Source of the DNA: Tistrella mobilis KA081020-065
GTDB taxonomy: Bacteria > Pseudomonadota > Alphaproteobacteria > Tistrellales > Tistrellaceae
NCBI RefSeq assembly: GCF_000264455.2
Contig: NC_017957.2
Location: 620,001 to 684,000 of the forward strand
Direction of reading: 5' to 3'
Length of the DNA stretch: 64,000 bases
A program made the translations under genes and the position numbers. Shown one piece after another: positions 26,176 to 29,894 of the stretch (position 1 is the stretch's first letter; each line of letters opens with the position of its first letter). The notes below the pieces were generated by a model. That model saw only the letters and a program-made list of their open reading frames with translations. It had not been told where the DNA came from and did no database searches.

Positions 26176-26204
26176 TGACAATGCGTCTCATTCTCATATT
26201 GTCA
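26176..26204. promoter_or_regulatory. Fur/Irr-like dyad before the FecI-FecR-receptor operon
   Basis: Arms TGACAAT and ATTGTCA, perfect over 7 bp, flank an AT-rich core with TCTCATTCTCAT, close to the AATGAGAAT-type half-sites of Fur boxes. It sits upstream of the sigma-factor gene in an otherwise GC-rich region. Iron or heme control is inferred from this plus the regulated genes. Confidence 0.6.
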
Positions 26205-26213
26205 CGAAGAAGA

Positions 26214-26241
26214 GGGCGCCCGGTTGTCCGAGGCGCCCTTT
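26214..26241 (-). terminator. Terminator of the RiPP operon
   Basis: Stem GGGCGCC/GGCGCCC with an 11-nt loop. Read leftward it is followed by TCTTCTTCG; read rightward by TTTT. It lies 25 bp beyond the stop codon of the 48-aa precursor gene and separates that operon from the sigma-factor promoter. Confidence 0.7.
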
Positions 26242-26265
26242 TCCGGCAGCGGGTACCGGCCGGGA

Positions 26266-26412
26266 TCAGGGCGGCGGCAGGGACACGGTCGCCCCGTCAA
26301 GGAACGGGCCGGCTGCCCCTTGCGCCTCATTGAGATTGAGCCGGATGACCTCAGGCTCGATCCAGCTTTCCCGGCCATCCGGCCGGTCGCCGGCGATGTC
26401 GTGATCGATCAT
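26266..26412 (-). CDS. Candidate RiPP (lasso-type) precursor peptide
   Basis: 48 codons, short enough to be missed by gene callers. ATG at 26412 has a strong site GAGGAAAGGA 8 nt upstream. The first 31 residues look like a leader: charged start, then WIEPEVIRLNL, which matches the Y-x-x-P-x-L recognition motif read by lasso B1/RRE proteins with W and V substituted. The remaining 17 residues are GAAGPFLDGATVSLPPP. Gly32 and Asp39 are spaced 1 to 8, the exact geometry of a lasso macrolactam ring, leaving a 9-residue tail. The usual Thr at core minus 2 is Ala. It lies 76 bp after the PqqD-type gene. Lasso class is inference; precursor status is strongly suggested by context. Confidence 0.7.
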   Translation of the reverse strand: MIDHDIAGDRPDGRESWIEPEVIRLNLNEAQGAAGPFLDGATVSLPPP

Positions 26413-26488
26413 ATGATCCGTCCTTTCCTCTGACAGAGTTCGTCGCGTGTATCGTCAATATCTGCGCGATGCAGATCTCTGACGGCCA

Positions 26489-26794
26489 TCATGTCACGAC
26501 CAGCCCGGCCGCGACCAGATCGCCCAGCACCTTCTCCACGGCCGCAAGGCTGGTCGCCTCGTCGACCGCGAAGCGGGCACGAAGTCTTGCCGCCAGATCG
26601 CGGCCGCTCTTCGGGGTTTCGAGCCCGTCCCAGACGGCCGCCGCACTGCGGTTGAGGCCCAGAATATCGCCGGTCTCGGGGTTCATCAGCACGACATCGC
26701 CATTGAGCGGCGTTGCCATCACGCCGGGGGCGCGGGTGTACACGCGGTCGGGATCGATGGTGGCCGGACTGGTCAAAGGGGTCTGGCTGGTCAT
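26489..26794 (-). CDS. PqqD-family peptide-recognition protein (RRE)
   Basis: 101 aa. PqqD/RRE pattern: VYTRAPGVMATPLNGDVVLMNPETGDILGLNRSAAAVWDGLETPKSGRDLAARLRARFAVDEATSLAAVEKVLGDLVAAGLV, i.e. three beta strands then three helices. These domains bind the leader of ribosomal peptides and present it to modifying enzymes. Its start overlaps the kinase stop (ATGA). With the asparagine-synthetase homologue and the small peptide gene it forms the B1-type part of a lasso-like system. Confidence 0.9.
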   Translation of the reverse strand: MTSQTPLTSPATIDPDRVYTRAPGVMATPLNGDVVLMNPETGDILGLNRSAAAVWDGLETPKSGRDLAARLRARFAVDEATSLAAVEKVLGDLVAAGLVVT

Positions 26795-27747
26795 GAGGTC
26801 GGAACATCCTCGGAAACGGCAGGGACGGCGGCGGCGAGATGCTGGCGGATAGTCGCCACCACCGCCGGCAGGGCGTCGAAGCGACGGGGATAGTGCAGGC
26901 GATGGACCGGCACGCGCTGCACCAGCCGCAGAACCGCGGCCTGGATCGCCGGTTCCCGGCCGAGCGGCCCCATCACCCAGCCGCCATAGAGATTGCCAAG
27001 CACCAGCTTCAGCGCGGCAAGGCCGGACAGCCGCTCGATCCGGATGCCGGGCGTCTCTGCGGTCGCCGCCAGCCCGAAGATGCCGCGGAGCGGCAGCAGG
27101 CGGTCGGCCGCCGCGGTCGGCACCAGATCGTCGAACCGGAACTTGTCGACACCGGCGGCGACGGGGCGCTCCCCCCGCCCCGCCCAGGCCAGCCCTGCTA
27201 CCGAGCTGTCCCAGAGCCTGAGTTCGCGTTGCAGGGATCGCACGCGGGTCTCCCCCGCCACCTCCTGCAGATGGCAGACGTCATCGGCCACCAGTTCCGT
27301 GCCGGCATCGGTGAAGGCGGCGGCCAGCGTCGACTTGCCGGCGCCGGAATCGCCACAGAAGGCAGCCACCCCGTCGCCCAGCACCAGCCCGCTGGCATGC
27401 AGCGGCAACAGGCCGTTGCAGAAGGAGAGATGCGTATACACCGCCACCCGCATCATGTGATCGACATGCTCCGGCGCGTCGGGGGCAAGCACGACCTCGC
27501 GGCCCGCCACGATCATCAACCGGCCGAGCCCGGGCAGGATCTGGATGTAATGCGTGGCATCGATCCGGGAATGCGGGCCCGTGAACAGCGGCGCCGGCAG
27601 ATCTTCGGGCACGGGCCCGAGGCGGATGGTCGCCACCGGATCGCCCGCCTCGGGTCCGGCCGGCTCCAGCCCGCCGAGCGGCACGGCGCTCGCCAGCACC
27701 AGGCCCAGCATCCGGTAGCGATAGGGCAGATCATTCCCCGCCATCAT
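26791..27747 (-). CDS. HPr-kinase-like P-loop protein of RiPP locus
   Basis: About 318 aa. The start is placed at the ATG that overlaps the upstream stop codon (TGATG). The N-terminal half is unassigned; then LPLHASGLVLGDGVAAFCGDSGAGKSTLAAAF (Walker A at about 132-140) and ELVADDVC, the pattern of HprK-like kinases that accompany PqqD proteins. In paeninodin-type lasso clusters a related kinase phosphorylates a C-terminal serine of the precursor; here the candidate precursor has Ser44 near its C-terminus. Whether this protein phosphorylates it is untested. Residues 155-156 (DD) could be the Walker B/catalytic acids. Confidence 0.85.
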   Translation of the reverse strand: MMAGNDLPYRYRMLGLVLASAVPLGGLEPAGPEAGDPVATIRLGPVPEDLPAPLFTGPHSRIDATHYIQILPGLGRLMIVAGREVVLAPDAPEHVDHMMRVAVYTHLSFCNGLLPLHASGLVLGDGVAAFCGDSGAGKSTLAAAFTDAGTELVADDVCHLQEVAGETRVRSLQRELRLWDSSVAGLAWAGRGERPVAAGVDKFRFDDLVPTAAADRLLPLRGIFGLAATAETPGIRIERLSGLAALKLVLGNLYGGWVMGPLGREPAIQAAVLRLVQRVPVHRLHYPRRFDALPAVVATIRQHLAAAVPAVSEDVPTS

Positions 27748-29726
27748 CAATCACCCGCCTTTGCCGCATCCTCGCGGCCGGTCTGGTTGCTGCCCGAAAA
27801 CCGTCGGGCGAAGCGGCCGACATTCAACGCCTGGGTCAGGGTCACCTGCAGGGCGATCATCATCTCGCGGCTCTCGTCCGGACCGTCGATCTCTGCGGCC
27901 AGCACCTTCAGCCGCTCGATATCGAACAGGCCGGCGGTGTCGGGGCAGGCGGCGAGCGCATCGATCTCGCGCAGGATCTCGTCCCGCGCCGCCGACATCT
28001 GACGGCGCCAGGTCACTGCCTGGGCGCCCTGCCGCCGGTTCTCCACCACCGCCGGCGGCAACAGGCCGGCCATGGCCCTGCGGATCAGCCCGCGCGGCGT
28101 GCCGCCGGCCAGAAAGGCTTCGGGCGGCAAGCCCCAGCAGTATTCCGCCACCCGCCGGTCGGCGGTGGGATCGCGCAGCGACAGCCCGCAGCTCGCCTCG
28201 TAATAAAACGTGAGAAAGGCGAGGTCGTTATTGGCGAAGGCCGCGACCCGCCGTCCGCCATCGGCCAGCCGATCGGCACCGGGCCAGCGCCACACGGCCG
28301 CTTTCGCCAGACCATCGAGCCCGCCATCCGGCAGGGCCTCGGGCCGCAATGCCGCCGAAGCGTTTTCCAGCACCCGCCGGCCGATCCGGCGCCGCAAACC
28401 GGCCGGCACCGGCAGCCGGCGGCGGACCGCCATCGCCGTCTCCGCGACCAGCAGCCGGCGCTCGATCCGATTCAGATCGCGCAGCCGCCAGCCATGGCGG
28501 GCGAGCGCCAGGAACCGGCCGCGCAGGACCATGTCCGCCAGCCCCTCGAACCCCTCGGCACTGATGGTGAGATTGCCGTACCCGGCGTGAAGCAGCACGC
28601 CGGCCCCCCGACGGCCGGCCGCCCGGGCGATGTCGTCGAACCAGGGCATGTTCATGGCGTTGACCGGCGGCAGATCGGCCCCGGCGGCGATCCGGTCGAA
28701 CAGCTCCAGCTCCAGCGCCGGGGTTTCGCGGATCACATGATGGCGGATATTTGGGAAGCGGGCCGCGGTTTCGGCGGCAACACCGCTTTCGTCATGGCGC
28801 AGCAGCGGATGGACCGGGGGCGTGCCCTCGGGCGGGGCGGCGGTATAGGCGTCCAGCACGTCATTGCGGGCGGCCAGCACGCCCGCCGCCAGGGCGGTGA
28901 CGGCGCTACTGTCCAGCCCGCCGCTCAACTGGCTGGCGACGCCCCGGGCGCTGCGGGTCTGTGCGGCCACCGCCGTCTCCAGCACCGCACGCAGCCCCTC
29001 GGCATAATCATCCGTGCGGGCGAAGCGCAGCGGGGCCACGTGATCCGGCCGCCAGTGATGATCCACCACCACCCGGCCGGCCTGCATTTCAAGGAAGCAG
29101 CCGGGCGGCAGGGCCTGAATGTCCTGATAGATCGTCCGGTCGGCCGCCACCCGCCAGCGGATCGAATGGCGGGCAAGGGCAACGGGATCCAGCGCCCGCG
29201 GCACCGCCGGATCGGCGAACAGGCCCCGGGGCACGGTGGCGAAGCGCAGAAAATCGCGCGCCAGATGATAGACCAGCGGCCGCATGCCCAGGGCATCGCG
29301 CGCCAGCAGCAGCCGGTCCTCGCCCTCGTCGAACAGGGCCAGTGCGAAGGCCCCGCAGAACCAGCCGAGCGCATCGCGCCCCGCCGCCTCGAAACATCTG
29401 AGCGCGATCCGCCCGTCGGGCATGGACGCCGCCTCGGGCCCCGTCCGCCCCAGCCGGGCCAGCAGCTCCGCCCGATTGTCCAGCCGCCCGTCGAACACCA
29501 TCACCAGCCGGCCGCCGCCGCCGCGCATCGGCTGACGATCGACGCGATCCTCGGGCAGATCGACGAACTGCCGCCAGGCCAGCGCCGCACGGTCCCCGCG
29601 CACCACCCCGTCGGTGCCGCCCCCATCGGTGCCGCCCATGGGCAGCATCGCGCGAAGGCCCCGCGGCTGCCAGTCCGGGTCAACAGGACGTCCGTCACGG
29701 CTTGCGATACCCAGGATGCAGGACAA
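27747..29726 (-). CDS. Asparagine-synthetase-like enzyme, candidate lasso cyclase
   Basis: About 659 aa from a TTG at 29726, chosen because GGAG lies 9 nt upstream and the protein then begins MSCILGIASRDG like an asparagine-synthetase N-terminus. ATGs further out (29792, 29819, 29837) add a low-quality extension. The glutaminase-like domain has Cys at position 3, not 2, so it is probably inactive, as in lasso cyclases. The synthetase domain keeps the ATP-pyrophosphatase loop SQLSGGLDSSAVTALA (about 264-279). It would adenylate the Asp or Glu side chain that closes the ring. First gene of the operon, divergent from the acylase. Confidence 0.85.
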   Translation of the reverse strand: MSCILGIASRDGRPVDPDWQPRGLRAMLPMGGTDGGGTDGVVRGDRAALAWRQFVDLPEDRVDRQPMRGGGGRLVMVFDGRLDNRAELLARLGRTGPEAASMPDGRIALRCFEAAGRDALGWFCGAFALALFDEGEDRLLLARDALGMRPLVYHLARDFLRFATVPRGLFADPAVPRALDPVALARHSIRWRVAADRTIYQDIQALPPGCFLEMQAGRVVVDHHWRPDHVAPLRFARTDDYAEGLRAVLETAVAAQTRSARGVASQLSGGLDSSAVTALAAGVLAARNDVLDAYTAAPPEGTPPVHPLLRHDESGVAAETAARFPNIRHHVIRETPALELELFDRIAAGADLPPVNAMNMPWFDDIARAAGRRGAGVLLHAGYGNLTISAEGFEGLADMVLRGRFLALARHGWRLRDLNRIERRLLVAETAMAVRRRLPVPAGLRRRIGRRVLENASAALRPEALPDGGLDGLAKAAVWRWPGADRLADGGRRVAAFANNDLAFLTFYYEASCGLSLRDPTADRRVAEYCWGLPPEAFLAGGTPRGLIRRAMAGLLPPAVVENRRQGAQAVTWRRQMSAARDEILREIDALAACPDTAGLFDIERLKVLAAEIDGPDESREMMIALQVTLTQALNVGRFARRFSGSNQTGREDAAKAGD

Positions 29727-29894
29727 GCGTGCGGGCTCCGCGTTGCGGGGGAAGGAGGCCGGAAGATACACCACGGCAGGTCGCCCTTCCATCCCGGTTG
29801 ACGCCACCCCCCGCTTCATGCGCCCCTTTCCCGTCACCCGCCTTTCCCGTCACCCGCCTTCCCGCCACATTCGACTGCGAGGATCCTTCGCCCC

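Follow-up and report, generated by a model that had tools for sequence, protein, structure and literature searches.

A four-gene lasso-type cassette in Tistrella mobilis without a local B2 protease, and a candidate partner B2 on another replicon

Among described systems for ribosomally synthesized and post-translationally modified peptides (RiPPs), those closest to the locus analyzed here are of the paeninodin lasso type (PadeK, ThcoK and SyanK of Sphingobium yanoikuyae), which combine a W-x-x-P leader, a discrete B1 protein, an HprK-type kinase, an AsnB-type cyclase and a ring acid at core position 8 or 9. The same features occur in a four-gene locus within a 64,000-nucleotide stretch of Tistrella mobilis KA081020-065 (NC_017957.2, positions 620,001 to 684,000; hereafter the window). 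This locus differs from the paeninodin type in having neither a B2 protease nor a transporter in its unit, in carrying Ala rather than Thr at position -2 relative to the core, in lacking a C-terminal Ser and in being alphaproteobacterial; the paeninodin family proper is described as restricted to Bacillota (PMC13381572). The Bsf lasso peptide of Bradymonas sediminis (BsfA/K/B1/B2/C) is akin to the window precursor in that its kinase acts on an internal residue, Ser3, and its -2 residue is not Thr, but it has Ile(-2), a local B2, a nucleotidyltransferase and a transporter (PMC10368454). Clusters for linear polyphosphorylated peptides (LPPs) likewise encode a B1, an HprK-type kinase and a [Y/W]xxP leader; unlike the window locus, they contain no cyclase and use a SipW-like signal peptidase (PMC13381572). 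Because the window cluster has a cyclase, we rejected its identity as an LPP locus; a scan of eight window proteins, which did not extend to other parts of the genome, found no SipW-like signal peptidase. A maturation protease encoded away from the precursor locus, as we propose here, is described for lanthipeptides with unclustered proteases (PMC8960859), which are another RiPP class with proteases other than lasso B2. Among the open-access papers searched, judged by title or abstract start, we found none that describes such an arrangement for lasso peptides.

The window encodes a 48-amino-acid open reading frame (ORF) that belongs to a family of similar small ORFs, forms an inserted unit with three enzyme genes, and is accompanied in this genome by a single detected B2, on another replicon. 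The reading we favor, and consider reasonably probable, is that the four genes are a mobile A-B1-K-C cassette for a lasso-type RiPP that relies on this remote B2, shared and acting in trans. Its features are as follows:

26202-29796, strand not assigned: inserted unit, the four-gene lasso-type cassette (empty site in the sister species)
26266-26412, minus strand: precursor gene A, 48 amino acids (held-out profiles, spacing statistics of relatives, Shine-Dalgarno AAGGA)
26347-26364, minus strand: leader motif W17-I-E-P-E-V, the proposed B1 binding site (26-row alignment)
26269-26319, minus strand: predicted core GAAGPFLDGATVSLPPP, with Gly1 at 26317-26319, Asp8 at 26296-26298 and Ser13 at 26281-26283 (alignment with relatives)
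26489-26794, minus strand: B1, a PqqD-type RiPP recognition element, 101 amino acids (PF05402, 8e-16; 19-member family profile)
26791-27750, minus strand: K, an HprK-type kinase, 319 amino acids (PF07475, 9e-5; His-GKS-Asp-Asp order; relatives beside B1 and cyclase elsewhere)
27747-29726, minus strand: C, an AsnB-type macrolactam cyclase with a TTG start, longest frame from 29837 (Asn_synthase, 3e-30; GATase_7, 1e-19; NF033535, 203 bits)
26213-26239, minus strand: RNA hairpin downstream of the precursor gene, possibly a weak terminator (folding of a 71-nucleotide stretch)

The earlier note, written from the letters of the window, had placed the precursor and the PqqD, HprK-like and AsnB-like genes correctly and had proposed a leader-bearing precursor with a ribosome site; the AAGGA Shine-Dalgarno, 8 nucleotides upstream of the precursor ATG, and the held-out profiles described below bear this out. 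The ORF encodes the leader MIDHDIAGDRPDGRESWIEPEVIRLNLNEAQ followed by the predicted core, and a cut after Gln31 would give a core with Gly1 and Asp8. The leader fits [Y/W]xxPx[L/V/I/F/A], the motif bound by lasso RiPP recognition elements (PMC13381572). When the 1149 stop-to-stop frames of the window were searched with a profile built from 53 validation ORFs alone, all collected by rule beside related cyclases elsewhere, this ORF scored E 5e-6 and no other frame fell below 0.27. It also came first with the discovery-set profile lacking the window row (E 1.5e-5), and again with its closest paralogue removed as well (E 9e-4). A combined rule (W..P, Shine-Dalgarno, T/A at -2 and D/E at core 8 or 9) matches one ORF in the 64 kb, this one; simulated first-order Markov sequences (n=40) gave a mean of 0.125 matches, with at least one match in 5 of the 40. 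By these comparisons the ORF is very likely a member of a lasso-type precursor family.

To collect relatives, a genome collection was scanned with a five-cyclase alignment, and 80 loci were kept of 429. Validation ORFs were then retained by rule (leader motif, Shine-Dalgarno, length, a cyclase or B1 close by, and no overlap with a larger gene), yielding 53 short ORFs in 44 of the 80 loci and none in the other 36. The earlier note would have been refuted had no such frame been conserved next to comparable genes. The outcome favors it, since similar short ORFs accompany related enzyme sets in these 44 loci, although the locus itself is missing from the other two genus genomes; the Gly1/Asp8 ring spacing that the note had picked out is supported as well. 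T or A at -2 together with D or E at core 8 or 9 is found in 45 of the 53 (9.5 expected by shuffling; 45 was reached in 0 of 5000 shuffles), and a C-terminal Ser in 47 of the 53 versus 6.0 expected; the 53 include apparent spurious frames and are partly non-independent, L139 contributing four near-copies and L145/L157, L143/L149 and L171/L172 being near-identical. The 26 discovery ORFs were chosen by eye from a motif list after the spacing was known, so that their statistics are biased: with the window included and L027 and L028 dropped as near-copies of L022, the spacing occurs in 22 of 24 (4.6 expected) and the Ser end in 21 of 24. They pointed to a W-x-x-P-x-[LIV] leader with Thr or Ala at a fixed spacing and an acid nine or ten residues on; the leader W and P are invariant in the 26-row alignment, whose rows were themselves selected by that motif.

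Thr(-2) has been published as conserved or invariant, with Ile or Val as rare exceptions (PMC10368454, PMC10885120). The window precursor has Ala, which the earlier note took as a possible sign of a new subtype. That suggestion does not hold up: among 66 assignable relatives, Ala occupies this position in 21 and Thr in 45. The count started from 76 ORFs (23 discovery ORFs without the window, plus the 53), 10 of them unassignable, and assignment required T, A or I plus the ring acid, with T preferred.

Transcription on the minus strand runs through cyclase, kinase and B1 to the 48-amino-acid ORF, which follows B1 after a 76 bp gap; the genes are overlapping or close, all four frames are intact, and they make up one predicted operon. 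The 71-nucleotide stretch after the precursor gene folds at -33.5 kcal/mol (z -3.2); a terminator rule reports no site there, because there is no long T run. The proposed B1/kinase/C set was borne out by matches to PF05402, PF07475 (below cut-off), Asn_synthase and NF033535 (below cut-off). A profile of 19 B1 proteins, the window B1 included, matches the solved lasso B1 proteins 9x90 and TbiB1; lasso-specific NCBIfam B1 models score below cut-off for the window B1 (36.2 versus 70 bits), and a scan of the genome contigs with this protein found no relative. The kinase carries HASGL...GDSGAGKST...ADD, the His-Lys-Asp-Asp pattern expected of HprK-type kinases, and 80 of 102 kinase-like frames satisfy the corresponding His-GKS-Asp-Asp pattern. 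The TTG start of the cyclase at 29726, the end point given in the earlier note, aligns with the N-terminus of its homologues. In a FastTree phylogeny of 119 rows, this cyclase groups with that of a paralogous locus, L019 (support 99; identity 42-44%), and both sit within a set of 55 rows with support 100. PADLOC gave no match for the three window enzymes.

Comparison within the genus delimits the cassette. In the sister species (G002), window positions 26201 and 29797 lie only 10 bp apart (L185 4056 and 4045) and the 3595 bp between them are missing; given this exact empty site, the inserted piece is the four genes alone, with the penicillin amidase and the FecI/FecR/TonB genes outside it. The locus is missing from both other genus genomes, G002 and another strain of the same species (G001), whose penicillin amidase orthologues are 97% (G001) and 95% (G002) and TonB receptor orthologues 95% and 91%. 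We rejected the FecI/FecR/TonB receptor genes and the penicillin amidase as members of the system because G002 conserves both flanks while lacking the cassette; the TonB receptor itself exceeds the cut-off of a heme-type receptor family. At the same site G001 carries about 5.3 kb of other DNA:

L187 203-5364 (G001:C38): RdrB and RdrA of the RADAR anti-phage system (PADLOC, 9e-124 and 2e-72)

The left flank of this RADAR insert is 46 bp at 83% up to a contig edge, and the rest of the flank ends another contig. The site resembles a cargo hotspot. A second stretch, L019 (acyltransferase, cyclase, B1 and precursor; no B2), is missing from G002 between conserved flanks; its empty site comes from G002 only, one flank alone having aligned in G001. 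On the strength of these two empty sites, small lasso cassettes appear to be gained and lost at variable sites. A search of plasmid DNA returned nothing beyond short penicillin acylase matches in 4 records.

No B2 was found in the cassette or nearby, and no transporter in the inserted unit. The earlier note had seen no B2, which stands for the locus and fails for the organism: the source genome (G000) has one B2 above the Pfam cut-off, and a 13-sequence B2 profile finds that gene only. The window lies on replicon C2 and the B2 on C3:

C3:654690-655172, minus strand: sole detected B2 of the source genome (Pfam and 13-sequence profile)

G001 and G002 have one B2 each, 96-97% identical and in matching surroundings. 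In G000 its neighbors are an isopropylmalate synthase, a histidine kinase and a plasmid RepA, and the three stretches around the genus B2 genes contain no cyclase, B1 or kinase match. The B2 profile matched no solved relative.

The other lasso-type genes of the genus are scattered as well. G000, G001 and G002 have 6, 5 and 5 cyclases above 350 bits and 9, 6 and 6 B1-like genes, respectively. The precursor profile run on G000 gives E up to 0.001 for 15 of the 28 matches listed, 7 of these 15 being rows of the model. Several of the precursor ORFs lie together:

C2:466974-468298 (L192 4975-6299): precursor run in G000, 1.3 kb with five ORFs, of which one lacks a Shine-Dalgarno
L192 10148-10291 and 14146-14274 (L192 being G000:C2:462000-481000): two further precursor ORFs within 8 kb of the run

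Precursor runs of this kind show a W.RP leader, T(-2), the ring acid and a C-terminal Ser. Around the G000 run, the 19 kb examined, reaching about 5 kb to one side and 12 kb to the other, contain no cyclase, B1, B2 or kinase match. Similar runs occur in G001 (L196) and G002 (L197), likewise without such enzyme matches in the stretches examined. Most simply, scattered precursors would be served in trans by a single B2 and probably by some of the cyclases and B1s as well. Whether this amounts to a decentralized lasso system, in which one conserved B2, strain-variable C/B1 cassettes and scattered precursors, enzyme-less runs included, all work in trans and the window cassette plugs in as a module at a cargo site occupied by RADAR in another strain of the species, we regard as an even call.

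Two further loci were seen in these genomes. A richer cluster at L020 3091-11225 (G000:C4:1010000-1026500) holds two precursor-like ORFs, two B1, a cyclase and a kinase, along with sulfotransferase-like, beta-hydroxylase-like and cupin-like genes, and no B2. A lone cyclase, L021 (G000:C4:923264), is conserved in the genus (orthologues L025 and L026, 93-95% identical). Its stretch contains neither a convincing precursor nor any match to B1, B2 or kinase; it is a candidate partner for the precursor runs.

B2-less loci also occur outside the genus. Where each flank reached 6 kb or more (54 loci), a B2 is present in 33 loci and a B1 in 46, and 14 combine a B1 with the lack of a B2. On the cyclase tree, the presence of a local B2 requires 28 changes, at least 23 of them forced by starred branches, truncated loci being scored as lacking B2. 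For 24 of the 32 loci that lack a local B2, the 23 genomes concerned were checked; 19 of these have a B2 somewhere, counted at any distance from the cyclase locus. Trios of genes annotated as, or matching, phage-tail-fiber (collar) proteins were noted beside alphaproteobacterial cyclase/kinase/B1 clusters (L030, L031, L068, L078, L080 and others).

How the cassette would operate can be outlined from its parts. B1 would bind the W17-x-x-P-x-V leader, and K would phosphorylate the linear precursor at one residue, Ser13 being the likeliest. B2 from the other replicon, shared with other cassettes, would cleave after Gln31, and C would close a ring between the amine of Gly1 and the side chain of Asp8, the tail presumably being threaded through it. 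Judged by sequence features, the cassette is of a phosphorylated, paeninodin-like lasso type, cut down to A-B1-K-C, and most likely depends on the shared remote B2; strict lasso membership we leave open, since a local B2, Thr(-2) and a C-terminal Ser were looked for and are absent.

Several observations weigh against a cassette served by a remote B2. NF033535 (lasso cyclase), the best NCBIfam match of the window cyclase, reaches 203 bits against a curated cut-off of 525, and PF07475 gives the kinase 22.4 bits against 33.3. The core ends VSLPPP, with no C-terminal Ser, Ser13 being followed by LPPP; Ser is the residue modified by characterized kinases of this type (PMC9266682, PMC8498205). G000 has nine B1-like genes, some or all of which may pass their precursor to B2. 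In four of the 23 genomes checked for B2-less loci no B2 was detected, and one of the four is apparently G006, the likely genome of L098, in which the 13-sequence profile also finds none. Because of these four, a shared B2 cannot be claimed for every case; either another maturation route exists or the B2 profile misses some B2s.

The four genomes also favor an unlikely but serious alternative, that the unit is a real lasso-type one whose leader is removed by a transporter peptidase domain or other protease, or whose cyclase works without a leader peptidase. By their titles, papers cited in PMC10885120 report that a peptidase/ABC-transporter takes part in maturing cochonodin I and that pseudomycoidin is made with neither a leader nor a leader peptidase. 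On the other side, the 19 genomes do possess a B2, and a B2 kept in the genus at 96-97% identity, with no lasso gene recognized beside it, needs a use.

The Pro end of the core, set against the Ser end of most relatives, and the lack of a B2 or transporter in the unit could instead mark a decaying cassette, whose precursor has lost its proper end by read-through past Ser13 and which makes nothing. We doubt this: the four frames are intact, and the L019 paralogue has the same layout (Ser13, then IFPI), so that the extension looks like a shared trait. For the window core, phosphorylation of Ser13, akin to that of internal Ser3 by BsfK, or trimming of the tail may apply instead. Somewhat more doubtful still is a product that is no lasso at all, such as an unthreaded macrolactam or a linear phosphorylated peptide. 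Threading is unreadable from sequence, and LPP clusters have B1, kinase and leader motif in common with this one, but a cyclase is present here, the ring-acid position is conserved in relatives, and LPP leaders carry Tyr in clusters described without a cyclase (PMC13381572). That the ORF is a chance frame, for which its shortness and lack of a Pfam or NCBIfam match might speak, is very unlikely given the held-out profiles, the 0.125 frames expected per 64 kb before any demand on position, and the place of the ORF within the precisely bounded insertion.

Searches for lasso peptides usually look for complete A-B-C clusters. Should a single B2 serve many loci, such cassettes and lone precursors are being under-counted, and the loss of that one protease gene would expose the whole set of lasso products of a genome in a single step. 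The relatives collected here, a natural Ala(-2) group and two cores with Ser13 plus an extension, offer test material for the requirements of B1, B2 and the kinase. With a shared B2, the transfer of lasso-peptide genes may not require the full cluster.

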